Made by a program: the position numbers and the translations under genes. DNA of 64,000 nucleotides from NCBI GenBank assembly GCA_016867715.1, contig VGIW01000002.1:1-64000 (forward strand), given 5' to 3'. Within the stretch, counting starts at the first letter, position 1, and each line of letters begins with the position of its first letter. Of the stretch, positions 33,627 to 58,403 are shown one piece after another. This DNA comes from Candidatus Eisenbacteria bacterium. GTDB taxonomy: Bacteria > Orphanbacterota > Orphanbacteria > Orphanbacterales > Orphanbacteraceae. The notes beneath the pieces are model-generated. The model did no database searches. It had not been told where the DNA came from and saw nothing but the letters and a program-made list of their open reading frames with translations.

Positions 33627-34280
33627 TCAGAACCCGACGTGCAGCCTGAGATGATACGTCCCGCCCCGGTACGCGTCGTCGAGGCTCAAGCTCTTGCTTC
33701 CGATCTTCAGCTCCTTGTCCGTCACGTCGGTCAAGTCGAACGTGTAGCGTGCCTCGGGAGCGAGAGAGAGACCGAGGAACGGGAGCTTGAACTCGATGCC
33801 GATCCCCACGTTTCCCCCCCAAACGGTCGACCGGAAGTTGTCCTCGAAGTCGCCGGCGGACGTCACGTTGAACCGGAGCTCCGGACCGAAGAGGAGGTAA
33901 GGCTTCAAAGCGGGAGTGATGAGGCGGTACTGAAGATCGATCGGAACGACGAAGTATCGGACATCGAACGTGTCGTTGAGGCTCGCGGGATCGTCGAGGC
34001 CGTCCGAAAGACCCTCGAAGAGCGGCCCCGCGTTTAGATAGATCGCCCCCACCCGGAGGCCGAGCGGTCCGAGCGCGCTCATCGCGTACAGGCCGAAGTG
34101 CGTGCCCGTCCGGTTGTCGTAGGTCGTCTCCGCGTCGTCCACGCGCACGTCCTCGAGGGATGCGTAGTTCAGCCCGATCGTGATCCCCGACGAGGCCGCA
34201 GCGTGCGAGGCGCCCGCCGCTGAGAAGAGAACCGCGGCCGCGCACGCGATCCGCGCCGCCCAATCGAAATGTTGAGACAT
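33627..34280 (-). CDS. Outer-membrane beta-barrel protein
   Basis: The 217-residue protein has a cleavable signal (cleavage after ASHA) and alternating strands typical of small barrels (SGITIGLNYASLEDV, VRYFVVPIDLQYRLI, KPYLLFGPELRFNVT, GNVGIGIEFKLPF, LAPEARYTFDLTDV), ending in aromatic Phe (YHLRLHVGF), the outer-membrane insertion signal. It resembles the PorT/OMP_b-brl families. The start ATG follows GGGGAGGAAAA. The IMPase gene starts 22 nt further on in the same direction. Confidence 0.82.
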   Translation of the reverse strand: MSQHFDWAARIACAAAVLFSAAGASHAAASSGITIGLNYASLEDVRVDDAETTYDNRTGTHFGLYAMSALGPLGLRVGAIYLNAGPLFEGLSDGLDDPASLNDTFDVRYFVVPIDLQYRLITPALKPYLLFGPELRFNVTSAGDFEDNFRSTVWGGNVGIGIEFKLPFLGLSLAPEARYTFDLTDVTDKELKIGSKSLSLDDAYRGGTYHLRLHVGF

Positions 34281-34392
34281 CGTGTTTTCCTCCCCTTTGT
34301 CGGTTTGGTCGGAAGACCGCATGCCGCCCAGCGCGCTCATCGTACCAGCCCCCATTCGGCCCCGCAAGGACCCCCGGGACTGTTCGGGACGG

Positions 34393-34421
34393 TTGACCGA
34401 ACCGGCCGGGGCCGGTAGCAT
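34393..34421 (+). promoter_or_regulatory. Predicted promoter for the sulfatase-like gene
   Basis: TTGACC (34393-34398) and TAGCAT (34416-34421) are separated by 17 nt and face the sulfatase-like gene, leaving a leader of about 130 nt. Confidence 0.4.
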
Positions 34422-34560
34422 ACGCGGGGGCGGACGCTCGGACCGGCGTCTTTGGCGACGCGGAAGTTCGGGCGGCTCGGCGAGCGCGGCGGGGGAGAGA
34501 GGCGCGCGCGGTTTCGGACCGCGTGTCTCGCGGGCTCTTCACCGGGAGGAAACACGCTCG

Positions 34561-52470: not shown

Positions 52471-53088
52471 CTATTCGGTCGATACGCGCCTCACCGAGAG
52501 GATCTCGATCGGATCGAGAGGGACATCCTTCGGCAGCTGCCCCATCGCTCCGGTCTTCACGGCGCGGATCTTGTCCACGACGTCCATCCCCTCCACCACC
52601 CGTCCGAACACGCAGTAGCCGAAACGAGCTTCGCCGTCGAAGTGATCGAGGTTCGTGTTGTCCTGGACGTTGATGAAGAACTGGCTGGTTGCGGAATGCG
52701 GCTCGGGGAGCCGCGCCATCGCGATCGTCCCGCGCGTGTTCGAGAGCCCGTTGTCCGCTTCGTTCTTGACGGCGGGTTTGGTCGGCTTGCGCGCGAGATC
52801 CTTCGTGAAGCCGCCTCCTTGAATGACGAAGCTCTCGATCACCCGATGGAAGATCGTTCCATCGTAAAACTTCTCGTCCGCGTAGGAGAGGAAGTTCTCT
52901 ACGGTGATCGGCGCCTTGTCGGCGAATAGCTCGATTCGGATGTCTCCCAGCGTGGTCTTCATGAGAACCATCGGGTTCGTTCGGACCTCCTCGGCAACCG
53001 ATTGCTGAACGGTTTCCGAAATCTGCGCGCTTCCCGCGCCCGCCGCAAGAAAGAGCAGCGCGGAAATCGTCGGTAGGTGTCGTCTCAT
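52471..53088 (-). CDS. Cyclophilin-type peptidyl-prolyl isomerase, secreted
   Basis: The 205-residue protein has a signal peptide (MRRHLPTISALLFLAAGAGS) and a cyclophilin domain: VLMKTTLGDIRIELFADKAP, DGTIFHRVIESFVIQGGGFT (the FHR...QGG active region), GTIAMARLPEPHSATSQFFI and GYCVFGRVVEGMDVVDKI. Arg of FHR, Gln of QGG and the SQFFI segment are kept, so it should be active. A promoter lies at 53149-53177. Confidence 0.92.
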   Translation of the reverse strand: MRRHLPTISALLFLAAGAGSAQISETVQQSVAEEVRTNPMVLMKTTLGDIRIELFADKAPITVENFLSYADEKFYDGTIFHRVIESFVIQGGGFTKDLARKPTKPAVKNEADNGLSNTRGTIAMARLPEPHSATSQFFINVQDNTNLDHFDGEARFGYCVFGRVVEGMDVVDKIRAVKTGAMGQLPKDVPLDPIEILSVRRVSTE

Positions 53089-53148
53089 CGGCAGTCCCTT
53101 TCCTTGTCGGTTCGTCTCCGTTTCCTTCTCCCGAGTCTTAGAACCCGG

Positions 53149-53177
53149 AGACTATCAGAAGTTCCCGGAGGGGGCAA
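53149..53177 (-). promoter_or_regulatory. Predicted cyclophilin promoter
   Basis: On the minus strand TTGCCC (53177-53172) and TAGTCT (53154-53149) are separated by 17 nt; the leader is about 54 nt. Confidence 0.45.
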
Positions 53178-53325
53178 TCCTCGGGATGGCCCCTCATGGA
53201 GTGTGCACCGCCACGGCCTCTGCTATGCTGAACGGAGACCGGCCTCGCGGGGAAGGGGCCGTCGAGCGACGCGAACGAACGTTCGGGAGAACTCATCCCC
53301 GCGCCCGAACACGCGAGGTGCGCCC

Positions 53326-54141
53326 GTGGACGAAACGGACCGGAGGATCGCCGAGAAGATCGAGGCGATCGAGGAGAAGCTGGACGAAGGGGAAGCGGAA
53401 GAGGCGCTCCGCCTCGCCGACCATGCGGTCCGGGAGTTCCCGGACGCGCCGGATCTCCTCGCGCTTCGCGGGGACGCGCTCTGGGCGCTCGGGGGAGTGC
53501 GCGCGGCCTGTGAGGACTACGAGCTTGCCGTCGAGATGCTCCCCGACGCGGCGGATCTTCTCGCGGGGCTCGCGCGGATCCGCTTCTCGCTCGGGGACTT
53601 CCTCGGCGCGAGGCGACGCGCCGAGGAGGCGCTGAAGATCGAGGAGAGGGCGGAGGCGCTCGACGTGCTGAGCCGCCTCGCCGAGCGCGCGGGGCGTCTC
53701 AAAGATGCGGACCGCTTCGCGGAACGCGCGGCCCGCGCCGACCCGGAGGGCTTCCCGCGGCCCTTCCGAATTCCGGAGAAGGACTTCCTGCGGGCGGTCG
53801 AGGAGGCGATCGACCGGCTTCCGGAGCGGTTTCGGGACGCGGTCCGGGAGAAGAACGTCGCCATCCTCGTCGAGCCGGTTCCTCCGGAGGAGATCCTTCT
53901 CGAGGAGGAGCCTCCTTTCGACCCCTCGATCCTCGGGCTCTATCGGGGGATCCCGCTTCCCGATCGGGAGGCCGGCTCGCAAAGGGTCCCGGACACGATC
54001 CATCTCTTCCGCCACAACATCGAGAGGGCGGCCGCGGATCGCGAGACCCTGGTCGAGGAGATCGCGATCACCGTCTACCACGAACTCGGACACTTCTTCG
54101 GGTTGGACGAAGAGGATCTCGACGAGCTCGACCTCGGCTAG
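53326..54141 (+). CDS. TPR protein with C-terminal minimal zincin metallopeptidase domain
   Basis: The 271-residue protein has about three to four TPR-like helical repeats (residues 10-140: EGEAEEALRLADHAVREFPD, RAACEDYELAVEMLPDAADL) and a C-terminal zincin of the PF06262 type with H252, E253 and H256 in YHELGHFFGLDEEDLDEL, the HExxHxxG...E pattern. The start is a GTG with GAGGTG upstream. Minimal zincins of this kind are known as small cytoplasmic proteins; the TPR extension is less usual. The stop overlaps that of sixA as CTAG. Confidence 0.82.
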   Translation: MDETDRRIAEKIEAIEEKLDEGEAEEALRLADHAVREFPDAPDLLALRGDALWALGGVRAACEDYELAVEMLPDAADLLAGLARIRFSLGDFLGARRRAEEALKIEERAEALDVLSRLAERAGRLKDADRFAERAARADPEGFPRPFRIPEKDFLRAVEEAIDRLPERFRDAVREKNVAILVEPVPPEEILLEEEPPFDPSILGLYRGIPLPDREAGSQRVPDTIHLFRHNIERAAADRETLVEEIAITVYHELGHFFGLDEEDLDELDLG

Positions 54142-54587
54142 CGATGCGGTTTGTACCGGCCGTGGAAGCTCCAGGCTATCCCTTCACGCTTCAAGTGAAC
54201 GGCGGCGGCCGGAGGGAGCTTCAGGGCGTACTCTTTCCCCACGAGCCGGGTGAGGAGAAGCTCGAGGTGGGGCAAGTGCCCCACGACGGCGATGTCCTCT
54301 TCGATCGAGGAAAGCTCCTGCGCGATCGCGTCAATTTCGTCGTTCGGGTCGAGCCCCTTCCTCACCTCGATCGCGGCCGAGCGCCCGACCCTGTCGGTCA
54401 GGATCTCCGCGGTCTGGCGGGCGCGCGTCTTCCCGCTGTGGAGGATCCGCTCCACGCGGATGCCCGCCGCGGCGAGCTGATCGGCGACGTAGATCGAGTC
54501 GGCGATGCCCGTCTCGGTGAGGCCCCGGTCGGGGTCCGTGTCGGAGGGCATCGCGTGCCCGTGGCGCATGATGACGATGTCCGGCAT
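54138..54587 (-). CDS. sixA: SixA-type phosphohistidine phosphatase
   Basis: The 149-residue histidine-phosphatase-superfamily protein has the catalytic RHGHA at the N-terminus (VIMRHGHAMP), LTETGIADS, the SGKTRARQTAEIL arginine motif and VVGHLPHLELLLTRL with the second catalytic His. Length and order fit SixA, which dephosphorylates histidine-containing phosphocarriers. The ATG follows GAGGTG. A promoter lies at 54638-54666, divergent from the Mut7-C/CheR gene. Confidence 0.88.
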   Translation of the reverse strand: MPDIVIMRHGHAMPSDTDPDRGLTETGIADSIYVADQLAAAGIRVERILHSGKTRARQTAEILTDRVGRSAAIEVRKGLDPNDEIDAIAQELSSIEEDIAVVGHLPHLELLLTRLVGKEYALKLPPAAAVHLKREGIAWSFHGRYKPHR

Positions 54588-54693: not shown

Positions 54694-56001
54694 ATGGGCG
54701 ATCCGTGTTTCTTGGCCGACGACATGCTCGCGCGTCTGGCGCGCTGGCTCCGAGGGGCGGGGCTCGACGTGGCGTACGCCGGTCGGGGCGCGTCCGACGA
54801 CGAGATTCTCCGATCGGCCCGCAGGGAGGGACGGGTCGTCCTCACGCGGGACACGCGCTTTCCCGGCGGAGAAGAAGAGCGAATCGTCCTCGAGAGCGCG
54901 GATCTCGACGAGCAGCTCGTCGAGGTGCTCCGCCATTTCCCCTCGTTCGATCCTCTCGCGCGCTCCTTTTCCCGCTGCATGGAGTGCAACGGGCGGCTCG
55001 CCGAGGAGAACGATCCGCCCGCCCGGCCGGCGGGGGTCTCGGGGCCGTTCCGCCGGTGCGCGGAGTGCGGGAGGCTCTTCTGGCTCGGGACGCACACGCG
55101 GCGCATTCGGGAGCGGCTCGCGCGGATCGCGGGGAGGCTGGACGAGGCGAGTCGCGGGGAAGAGAGCGGGGAGCCTCCCCCGTTCGAGCGGGCGGCCTTC
55201 GACGCCTTTCTGCGAGACGCGTTCGCGAGACTCGACCTGTCGTGGCGCGGCTACCGGCGCGTCCGATTCGGGCTTCGGGGGCGCGTCCGGAGAAGACTCC
55301 GCGCGCTCGGGCTCCGCACGCTCTGGGAGTACCGGGAGACGCTCGCGCGCTCTCCGGAGGAGCGCTTCCTTCTCGGCGCCCTTCTTCACGTGACCGTCTC
55401 CCGGTTCTTCCGAGATCGAAGCGTCTGGCTCTCGCTCCCCGAGATCCTCTTTCCCCGGCTCGTCGAACAGGCGGGGAAGGGGCCGGTCCGCGTCTTCTCG
55501 CTCGGATGCGCGTCGGGCGAGGAACCCTTCACCCTTCGAATGCTTTGGAATGAATCGAGCGTGTCCGAGATCCCGATCGAGATCCTCGCGGCGGATGTTT
55601 CCGAATCGTGTCTCCGGCGCGCGCGCGAAGCGGTTTACCCCTCGAGCGCGGTGCACAACGTGCCCGAACCGTACGTGCGGCGCTACTTCCGCCTCGAAGG
55701 CGGAAACTGGATCCTCGACCGCACCCTCGCGGACTCGGTCCGTTTCGAGCGGTTCGATTGGAGAAGCGACCGTTGGCCGGGCCCGTTCCACTGGATCCTC
55801 GCGCGGAACGGGGTGTTCACGTATCTCGGCGAGGACGCGCGGCTTCGGGTGTTCGAGAAGATTCGCTCCACGCTCCTGCCGGGCGGCTTTCTCTGGGTCG
55901 GCGGAAACGAGAGGCTTCGCGAGGCGCCGAAGGATTGGGAGATCCTCGCGCCCGGCCTCTTTCGCGCCGGCGGATCGTCCGCGCGCGCCGGACCCGCTTG
56001 A
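54694..56001 (+). CDS. Mut7-C RNase domain fused to CheR-type methyltransferase
   Basis: Residues 5-145 are a Mut7-C (PIN-like) domain: FLADDMLARLARWLRGAGLD, DDEILRSARREGRVVLTRDT (D53), the zinc cysteines C95, C98, C122 and C125, and the family end FWLGTHTRRIRERL. Residues 165-420 are a full CheR: an N-terminal helical domain (FDAFLRDAFARLDLSWRGYR, ending HVTVSRFFRD), SAM motif SLGCASGEEP (269-278), D301 and RNGVFTYL (371-378). The frame is continuous. No Che or MCP genes are near; neighbours are sixA and acpS. The start is the ATG just before the first strand; it lacks a clear ribosome site. CheR normally methylates receptor glutamates; here the target is unknown. Confidence 0.8.
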   Translation: MGDPCFLADDMLARLARWLRGAGLDVAYAGRGASDDEILRSARREGRVVLTRDTRFPGGEEERIVLESADLDEQLVEVLRHFPSFDPLARSFSRCMECNGRLAEENDPPARPAGVSGPFRRCAECGRLFWLGTHTRRIRERLARIAGRLDEASRGEESGEPPPFERAAFDAFLRDAFARLDLSWRGYRRVRFGLRGRVRRRLRALGLRTLWEYRETLARSPEERFLLGALLHVTVSRFFRDRSVWLSLPEILFPRLVEQAGKGPVRVFSLGCASGEEPFTLRMLWNESSVSEIPIEILAADVSESCLRRAREAVYPSSAVHNVPEPYVRRYFRLEGGNWILDRTLADSVRFERFDWRSDRWPGPFHWILARNGVFTYLGEDARLRVFEKIRSTLLPGGFLWVGGNERLREAPKDWEILAPGLFRAGGSSARAGPA

Positions 56002-56057: not shown

Positions 56058-56453
56058 ATGATCGCCGGTATCGGGATGGACATGGTCCTCATCGAGCGGA
56101 TGCGCCGCGCGATCGATCGTTTCGGCGATCGCTTCTTGAGGCGCGTGTTCACGGAAGGAGAGATCGCGTACTGCCGCACGAAGCGCGATCCGGTCCCTTC
56201 CTTCGCCGCCCGCTTCGCCGCGAAAGAGGCGGCGATGAAGGCTCTCGGTACGGGCGTGTCGCGGGGTGTGTTCTTCCGGCACGTCGAGGTGTCACGTCGG
56301 AGAGGAGAGGGGCCGCGCGTCCTGTTCCACGGGGGGGCGAGGCGCCGGGCCGACCTTCTCGACGTGGCCGCCTCGCATCTCACGCTCACTCATGAGAAGA
56401 ACATCGCCGCCGCGTTCGTCGTCCTCATGAAGAAGCCGTCGCGTGAGCGTTGA
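56058..56453 (+). CDS. acpS: Holo-[acyl-carrier-protein] synthase
   Basis: The 131-residue phosphopantetheinyl transferase activates acyl carrier protein. Motifs are IAGIGMDMVLIERM (metal Asp), RVFTEGEIAYC, the catalytic FAARFAAKEAAMKALGTGV and LTHEKNIAAAFVVL (usually LSHT/D...A). Length fits AcpS. The ATG follows GAGG. It converges on tyrS with a dispersed repeat between. Confidence 0.92.
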   Translation: MIAGIGMDMVLIERMRRAIDRFGDRFLRRVFTEGEIAYCRTKRDPVPSFAARFAAKEAAMKALGTGVSRGVFFRHVEVSRRRGEGPRVLFHGGARRRADLLDVAASHLTLTHEKNIAAAFVVLMKKPSRER

Positions 56454-56455
56454 TC

Positions 56456-56523
56456 CGTCGGAGGGATGCTTCTTGCGCGACCCGGCCGAGAAGAGACCCG
56501 GCGTGCCTCGGTCGGATCGGGGC
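56456..56523. repeat. Third copy of the 36.7-kb dispersed repeat
   Basis: This 68-nt stretch aligns without gaps to 36735-36802: cgtcgga, ttcttgcg, cccggccgag and gtcggatc are shared at the same spacing, with about two thirds of positions identical. It fills the gap between convergent acpS and tyrS, and CCGGCCGAG with CTCGGTCGG can form a hairpin, so a terminator role is possible. Confidence 0.6.
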
Positions 56524-57794
56524 TATTCTTCGAAGCGAACGAGGCGGTAGTTCTTCTTCCCCTGTCTCAGGACGAGCGTCGATCCGGCCGCCAGGTCGTT
56601 CGGCCCGACGGAGCGGTCCGGGCTCTCCACGCGCACGTTGTTGAGATAAACCCCGCCTCCTTCGATGAGCCTCCGCGCCGCCCCCTTTCCCGTCGAAAGA
56701 CCGCTCTCGACGAGAAGGTCGACGATCCCAAGGCCCCCCGCGAGGCGCGCGCGCGGGAGGACGGCGGAGGGAACGTCCGCGAAGACGTCGGCGAGGGTGC
56801 GCTCGTCCACCCCATCGAGCGTTCCCCCGAAGAAGATCTCCGAGGCGCGGACCGCCGCGCGAAGCGCCCCGTCTCCGTGCACGAGCCGCGTCGCCTCCTC
56901 GGCGAGGCGTTTCTGCGCGGCGCGGCGCTCGGGCGCGGCCGCGAGCTCGCGCTCGATCTCGGCGATCTCTGGAAGCGGAACGAACGTGAACATCTTGAGA
57001 AAGGGGATCGCGTCCGCGTCGCTCGCGTTGATCCAATGCTGATAGAACCGGTAGGGGGAGGTGAGGGCCGGATCGAGCCAGATCCGCTCCCCGTCGCTCG
57101 TCTTTCCGAGCTTCTGGCCGGAGGAGTCGACGAGAAGAGGGAAGACGATCCCGTACGCCTGCTTGCCGCGCAGCTTCCGGATGAGATCGATCCCCGTGGT
57201 GATGTTCCCCCACTGATCGCTTCCGCCCGCCTGGAGCACGCAGCCGTGCGTATCGTGGAGGTGCAGGAAGTCGTACGCCTGAAGGAGCATGTACGAAAAT
57301 TCCGTGTACGAAATGCCTGTTTCTCCCGAGAGCCGGCTCTTCACGCTCTCCTTGGCGAGCATCTCGCCGAGGCGGAAATGCTTGCCGACGTCGCGGAGGA
57401 ACTCGATGAAGCCGAAGGATCCGAGCCAGTCGGCGTTGTTCACGAGGAGCGCCTTTCCCCCGCCGAAGTCGAGGAAGCGCTCGAACTGCTTCTTGAGGGC
57501 GGCGAGGTTCCGCTCGAGCGTCTCTGGATCGAGGAGGTTCCTCTCCTTCGACTTCCCCGAGGGATCCCCGATCATGCCGGTCGCCCCCCCCATCACCGCG
57601 ATCGCGCGGTGCCCGGCCCGCTGGAAGTGGGCGAGGCCCATGATCGGGATCAGGTTCCCCGCGTGGAAAGAGGGTCCGGTCGGGTCGAACCCGATGTAGC
57701 AGGAGACCTTCTCGCGCTCGAGGAGCTTCGGAATCTCCTCGGACGTCGCGTTCTCGATGAAGCCGCGCGCTTCCAGTTCGGCGTACAGGTTCAA
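56523..57794 (-). CDS. tyrS: Tyrosyl-tRNA synthetase
   Basis: The 423-residue class I synthetase charges tRNA-Tyr. It has YIGFDPTGPSFHAGNLIPIM (the HIGH-equivalent HAGN), LQAGGSDQWGNITTGIDLIR (Tyr site), and KLGKTSDGERIWLD (KMSKS-equivalent), with a C-terminal S4 domain (KGAARRLIEGGGVYLNNVRV). Length fits TyrS. A TAGAAT box on the minus strand lies at 57854-57849, overlapping the stop codon of the upstream macrodomain gene. Confidence 0.95.
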   Translation of the reverse strand: MNLYAELEARGFIENATSEEIPKLLEREKVSCYIGFDPTGPSFHAGNLIPIMGLAHFQRAGHRAIAVMGGATGMIGDPSGKSKERNLLDPETLERNLAALKKQFERFLDFGGGKALLVNNADWLGSFGFIEFLRDVGKHFRLGEMLAKESVKSRLSGETGISYTEFSYMLLQAYDFLHLHDTHGCVLQAGGSDQWGNITTGIDLIRKLRGKQAYGIVFPLLVDSSGQKLGKTSDGERIWLDPALTSPYRFYQHWINASDADAIPFLKMFTFVPLPEIAEIERELAAAPERRAAQKRLAEEATRLVHGDGALRAAVRASEIFFGGTLDGVDERTLADVFADVPSAVLPRARLAGGLGIVDLLVESGLSTGKGAARRLIEGGGVYLNNVRVESPDRSVGPNDLAAGSTLVLRQGKKNYRLVRFEE

Positions 57795-57851: not shown

Positions 57852-58403
57852 CTACTCGCTTTTCGGCGCGTCCTCCGATCGAATGTTCCCGAGGACCTTC
57901 CGGAACGCGGCGGCATCCCTTTCGCCGAAGAGGACGAAGCGAACGGTCTTCGGAAGGGGGTGCGCCTGGAGGAACCGAATCGTCGTCCGGATCGCGATTC
58001 GGCTCGCCTCGATGAAGGGGTAACCGTACGCCCCGGTCGAGATCGCGGGGAAGGCGATGCCGGCGCACCCGCGCTCCGCGGCGAGCTCCAACGACCGGCG
58101 ATAGCAGGACGCGAGCGCCTCCGGCTCGCCGTGCCTCCCGTCGCGATAGACCGGCCCGACCGCGTGGATCACGAACGGAGCGGAGAGGCGGAACCCCGGC
58201 GTGATCTTCGCGTCCCCGGTCTCGCATCCTCCGAGCGTCTCGCAGAACCGGCGGAGCTCGGGACCCGCCGCGCGGTGGATCGCCCCGTCCACGCCTCCCC
58301 CTCCGAGCAACGTCCGGTTGGCCGCGTTCACGATCGCCGCCACCCGTTCCCTCGTGATGTCCCCATCCACGATCTCGATCCGATCGAAGGGATTCTTCTT
58401 CAT
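57852..58403 (-). CDS. Macrodomain ADP-ribose hydrolase (YmdB/MacroD type)
   Basis: The 183-residue protein is a single macrodomain: IEIVDGDITRERVAAIVNAA, NRTLLGGGGVDGAIHRAAGP (catalytic Asn and the GGGVDGAIH loop), GDAKITPGFRLSAPFVIHAV and FPAISTGAYGYPF. This subgroup removes ADP-ribose from proteins or deacetylates O-acetyl-ADP-ribose. It lies upstream of tyrS in the same direction, 57 nt away. Confidence 0.92.
   Translation of the reverse strand: MKKNPFDRIEIVDGDITRERVAAIVNAANRTLLGGGGVDGAIHRAAGPELRRFCETLGGCETGDAKITPGFRLSAPFVIHAVGPVYRDGRHGEPEALASCYRRSLELAAERGCAGIAFPAISTGAYGYPFIEASRIAIRTTIRFLQAHPLPKTVRFVLFGERDAAAFRKVLGNIRSEDAPKSE

Follow-up and report, generated by a model that had tools for sequence, protein, structure and literature searches.

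What does a CheR methyltransferase do in bacteria that have no chemotaxis genes, and what does a Mut7-C domain joined to it contribute? CheR counts as an enzyme of chemotaxis, and annotations of chemotaxis often rely on it. The question is raised by one gene in a 64,000-nucleotide stretch of Candidatus Eisenbacteria bacterium (positions 1 to 64,000 of contig VGIW01000002.1, assembly GCA_016867715.1), which is called the window here. The gene encodes a fusion of Mut7-C and CheR; it is the sole CheR in genomes without chemotaxis, and it is tied to a domain of RNA-binding type. Both domain families of the fusion are known; their combination is new. Our leading answer, held tentatively and at somewhat less than even chances, is that it is a chemotaxis-independent, CheR-fold, S-adenosylmethionine (SAM)-dependent carboxyl O-methyltransferase, delivered to its substrate by an RNA-binding N-terminal Mut7-C domain. 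The gene and its parts are as follows.

54694..56001, plus strand: Mut7-C–CheR fusion gene, translated into 435 amino acids in one open frame; both Pfam domains are above the cut-off.
54709..55116, plus strand: Mut7-C domain, residues 6–141 (PF01927, E 4.3e-30).
54976-54987 and 55057-55068, plus strand: zinc-site cysteines C95/C98 and C122/C125 of the Mut7-C domain.
55090..55182, plus strand: junction with a long helix (residues 133–157) and an invariant GxPPP linker (159–163), from the six-fusion alignment and the AlphaFold model.
55189..55386, plus strand: predicted CheR N-terminal domain, arginine-rich and all-helical, residues 166–231, from the AlphaFold helices and the Foldseek alignment.
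55396..55938, plus strand: CheR SAM-binding catalytic domain, residues 235–415 (PF01739, E 5.3e-36).

No stop codon lies within the gene. According to the Pfam search, Mut7-C scores 105.2 bits against a cut-off of 23.3, and the CheR SAM domain scores 124.3 bits against a cut-off of 27. The Mut7-C domain begins at residue 6, and a ubiquitin-like domain N-terminal to it is absent, as nothing precedes it in the Pfam search or the alignment. The four cysteines are invariant in the six full-length fusions and in 18 stand-alone Mut7-C relatives. In the CheR half, R240, E276, E277, D301, R371, N372 and Y377 occupy SAM or active-site positions; they are invariant in the six fusions and are aligned with those of the solved CheRs, and the SAM-binding and catalytic residues are intact. 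The RNGVFTY motif of the fusion is one residue longer than the RNVxIY motif of chemotaxis CheR.

The CheR N-terminal domain (PF03705, CheR_N) gave no sequence match at E ≤ 1 in the Pfam search. In the AlphaFold model, residues 166–231 form five helices, and Foldseek aligned 274 columns to Salmonella CheR (1bc5; E 4.7e-20), spanning both CheR domains. These predictions suggest that both CheR domains are present. The full-chain model was computed from an alignment of 61 rows, and it is confident, with a predicted local distance difference test score (pLDDT) of 92.6 and a predicted template-modelling score (pTM) of 0.80. It supersedes an earlier run with six rows, which was poor (pLDDT 60.8). Eleven residues of the partial CheR rows are misaligned at positions 15–25 of the 61-row alignment, and the model shows no visible drop in confidence there. 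The preliminary description of the window, made from its letters, had proposed Mut7-C and a complete CheR in one frame. The Mut7-C domain, its zinc cysteines and the SAM domain were recovered by Pfam as proposed, whereas the helical domain is seen by the model and is unmatched by PF03705.

Is this architecture a property of the organism or of the assembly? The window belongs to a 3.5-Mb genome bin (G000), which was compared with six genomes of the same phylum (G001–G006). The fusion is present in all seven. The homologues of G001–G005, from other assemblies and genera, are full length and 50–62% identical to the window protein, and that of G006 (same genus) is 89% identical and split at contig ends. 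Between genera, the identities of the two halves are about equal (48–59% and 50–54%). At the junction, the six-fusion alignment has no gaps, and G159, P161, P162, P163 and R166 are invariant. Thus, selection seems to act on the spacing of the two domains. The stretch between them was checked for a stop or a frameshift; there is none, and the five full-length homologues agree. These homologues, together with the gapless junction, rule out an assembly artefact, a frameshift and a chimeric contig. According to the genome-wide search, the window genome has a single CheR and a single Mut7-C, both in the fusion.

Outside the phylum, no fusion was found among about 370 genomes sampled. In 283 further genomes across the taxonomic domain, CheR and Mut7-C matches were separate and never fused. 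The phyla of G143, G213 and G282 (18, 5 and 68 genomes, a few of which overlap with the 283) contain no fusion, and none was found in viral contigs. Twenty stand-alone Mut7-C loci, with flanks of up to 8 kb, were collected by a scan of GTDB contigs and showed neither a fusion nor a nearby CheR; as the scan used just two short peptide motifs, distant fusions could escape it, and it is weak evidence of absence. The preliminary description knew of no system with this architecture. Within the literature searched this is borne out: no description was found, and the co-mentions of Mut7-C and CheR were an author name (Cherry) or a reference-list entry.

Does the CheR half serve chemotaxis? According to genome-wide searches, five of the seven genomes (G000, G001, G002, G005 and G006) have no methyl-accepting chemotaxis protein (MCP) signalling domain, CheW or CheB. 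The same searches did detect these genes in control genomes as well as in two carriers, G003 and G004, each of which encodes a second CheR. The earlier remark that no chemotaxis genes lie near the fusion therefore extends to the whole window genome, which also has no other CheR. The CheR domains of the fusions group together in the tree (support 100/99), and this group nests with three non-canonical stand-alone CheR-like proteins (L019, L020 and L021; clade support 99/98). These three have an RNxxFTY or LTY motif, again one residue longer than RNVxIY, and no Mut7-C is fused to them or found in the surrounding stretch. The second CheR of G003 groups with the canonical CheRs; that of G004 is omitted from the tree. 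As most carriers have no chemotaxis genes, the fusion probably methylates something other than chemotaxis receptors. That it is a receptor methyltransferase with an accessory domain agrees with its CheR fold and catalytic residues, but is hardly credible given the five carriers without MCP, CheW and CheB, the other CheR of the two carriers with chemotaxis genes, and the separate clade. For the five genomes a chemotaxis role is refuted, unless all the receptors escaped the searches. When plasmids were searched for FTY-type CheR, the one close match lay near hfq and hsp20 genes on a plasmid of Microvirga (L089 5986-6675); the protein is apparently truncated at the C-terminus and is uninformative.

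Is the Mut7-C half a nuclease or an RNA binder? Iyer et al. 2006 (PMC1779556) placed Mut7-C among the PIN nucleases because catalytic residues are shared, and by comparison with that work D9, D25, D35 and D53 are the putative PIN catalytic acids. D9, D25 and the four cysteines are invariant. At position 53, the acid of the 'TRD' motif, 17 of the 18 stand-alone proteins have Asp and one has Asn, whereas the fusions are divided equally between Asp (3/6) and Asn (3/6). D35 is Asp in 15/18 stand-alone proteins and in 2/6 fusions. The putative nuclease acids are eroded in half of the family, and a PIN-type acid set is not conserved across it, with D53 and D35 lost in part. The copies with Asn53 are those of G001, G002 and G004. 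As they come from two lineages only (G001/G002 and G004), they represent one or two losses of D53. Judging from the relaxed D53 and D35, nuclease activity would be at best optional, and apparently dispensable, in the fusion family. A Lentisphaerae Mut7-C protein (L060 7971-8783) has a C-terminal extension of about 100 residues and, like half of the fusions, carries Asn where the TRD motif has aspartate.

A 2024 study of MUT-7 reports that MUT7-C binds RNA, which is probably its ancestral role, and that its structure does not significantly resemble that of PIN domains (PMC11347159). The ubiquitin-like–Mut7-C (Ub-Mut7-C) protein Rv0579 binds RNA tightly (PMC7052010). RNA binding by Mut7-C is on record only for MUT-7 and EXD3 (PMC11347159) and for Rv0579 (PMC7052010). 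The worm MUT7-C also docks the protein MUT-8 (PMC11347159).

The genes beside the fusion, in the window and in its relatives, are as follows.

56058..56453, plus strand: acpS, holo-acyl-carrier-protein synthase (PF01648), 56 bp downstream of the fusion.
54138..54587, minus strand: SixA-like histidine phosphatase gene (PF00300), divergent, 106 bp upstream; not a conserved part of the neighbourhood.
L016 3314-4636, minus strand: Nramp-type transporter gene upstream of the fusion in a relative.
L017 7538-8818, plus strand: the same, in a relative.
L018 6996-8393, plus strand: the same, in a relative.

The acpS gene lies directly 3' of the fusion in five of the seven genomes (G000, G001, G002, G006 and G003, the last with an ATGA start–stop overlap), and it is probably cotranscribed with the fusion. 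An opposite-strand aldehyde dehydrogenase gene lies between the two in G005, and in G004 no acpS was found close to the fusion. The preliminary description had named sixA and acpS as the neighbours. Both are present, but sixA adjoins the fusion in only three of the seven genomes (G000, G006 and G003), so that it is a weak functional hint and acpS is what remains of a conserved neighbourhood. acpS is the sole candidate for a functional link there; as a housekeeping gene, it makes a weak one. An Nramp-type transporter gene is located upstream of the fusion in G001, G002 and G005, overlapping it in G005, and in G004 with a sulfatase gene between. Just beyond the Nramp-type gene, G002, G004 and G005 have an outer-membrane beta-barrel gene, whose homologue in the window is distant from the fusion (33630-34538, minus strand). 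Also in the window, 53077-54141 (plus strand) encodes a protein that combines tetratricopeptide (TPR) repeats with a Zincin_1 metallopeptidase domain and is conserved in G006. A macro-domain protein gene (57852-58403, minus strand) is directly upstream of tyrS (56523-57794, minus strand), and this order is kept in G003, G002 and G006. An Rfam search of the window gave no match.

How might the two halves act together? In RNA-tethered methylation, our leading answer, the zinc-stabilised Mut7-C domain would bind RNA or an RNA–protein particle, the helix and the PPP linker would fix the position of the CheR domain, and CheR would bind SAM and esterify a nearby carboxylate. The acceptor may be a Glu or Asp side chain of an RNA-bound protein, such as one of translation; it may also be a modified nucleoside of tRNA that bears a carboxyl group. 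Several points weigh against this answer. The net charge of the Mut7-C half is −3 in the window copy and +8 in G001 and G002; as the window half is slightly acidic, RNA binding may not be universal in the family. The window copy retains D9, D25, D35 and D53, all four putative PIN acids, and so may itself be a nuclease. No gene of translation or RNA modification adjoins the fusion throughout the family, the conserved neighbour being acpS. We infer the binding of RNA by the window copy, the transfer of methyl groups and the acceptor. The slight negative charge would suit instead a Mut7-C that is only a structural or protein-docking module, with CheR methylating a soluble protein or an acyl or carrier-protein carboxyl group. 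The position of acpS, with the overlap in G003 and the probable cotranscription, fits this rival, and so does the docking of MUT-8 by the worm domain (PMC11347159). However, acpS is a housekeeping gene, is separated from the fusion in G005 and was not found nearby in G004, and Mut7-C retains the core motif and the zinc site of its stand-alone relatives. We regard this non-RNA rival as rather unlikely.

The preliminary description had favoured an active Mut7-C RNase that is coupled to the CheR methyltransferase in a two-step control of RNA or translation. The four acids of the window copy and the placement of Mut7-C with the PIN nucleases (PMC1779556) speak for it. The family as a whole does not sustain it, as position 53 is Asn in half of the fusions against one of 18 stand-alone proteins and D35 is kept in only two. 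Nor does the lack of significant structural similarity between MUT7-C and PIN (PMC11347159), and nuclease activity of an isolated Mut7-C domain was not found in the literature searched. The two-step scheme is thus improbable. As PIN-like proteins are often toxins, the fusion might also be a self-contained toxin or defence enzyme, a PIN-like toxin that is restrained by methylation. This is very improbable: PADLOC gave no match, the presence of the fusion throughout the sampled phylum is the opposite of patchy defence genes, the window genome has a single copy, viral contigs have none, and the neighbours are housekeeping genes. In our ranking RNA-tethered carboxyl methylation comes first, then a non-RNA protein or acyl substrate, then the nuclease–methylase.

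A broader proposal, which is possible but doubtful, is that the fusion belongs to a new class of carboxyl methyltransferases that are guided by RNA. A chemotaxis-type enzyme would have gained a new use when it was joined to an ancient RNA-binding domain, and would methyl-esterify the carboxyl groups of RNA-bound proteins or of modified tRNA. If so, this change took place in a small, mostly non-chemotactic phylum. In any case, one conserved protein offers a handle on the role of Mut7-C in bacteria and on the substrates of non-chemotaxis CheR enzymes.

Trm9 and CmoM are tRNA carboxyl methyltransferases of other methyltransferase families and have no Mut7-C; should the fusion methylate a carboxyl group of tRNA, they would be its functional parallel. 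The chemotaxis CheRs (PF01739; Salmonella 1af7/1bc5, Bacillus subtilis 5ftw and Pseudomonas CheR1 5xlx/5xly) have the same two-domain fold as the fusion, and the FFR, GEEP, acidic SAM-binding Asp and RN...Y residues are common to both. The fusion differs from them in the longer RNxxFTY motif, the separate clade and the Mut7-C domain in front, and the window genome has no receptors or CheB. The stand-alone proteins L019, L020 and L021 share the clade and the longer motif with the fusion, without the Mut7-C domain. FrzF of Myxococcus is also a CheR with a fused accessory domain, but its accessory domain is TPR instead of Mut7-C, and FrzF acts on the chemoreceptor FrzCD (PMC2535941). In the Ub-Mut7-C proteins (Mycobacterium tuberculosis Rv0579 and Thermotoga maritima TM_0779; PMC1779556, PMC7052010), Mut7-C is part of a two-domain bacterial protein, as in the fusion, whereas the fusion has a C-terminal methyltransferase. 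In animal MUT-7 and EXD3, Mut7-C is joined to an enzyme and raises its RNA binding; the partner in those proteins is a DEDDy exoribonuclease, with Mut7-C on its C-terminal side (PMC11347159).
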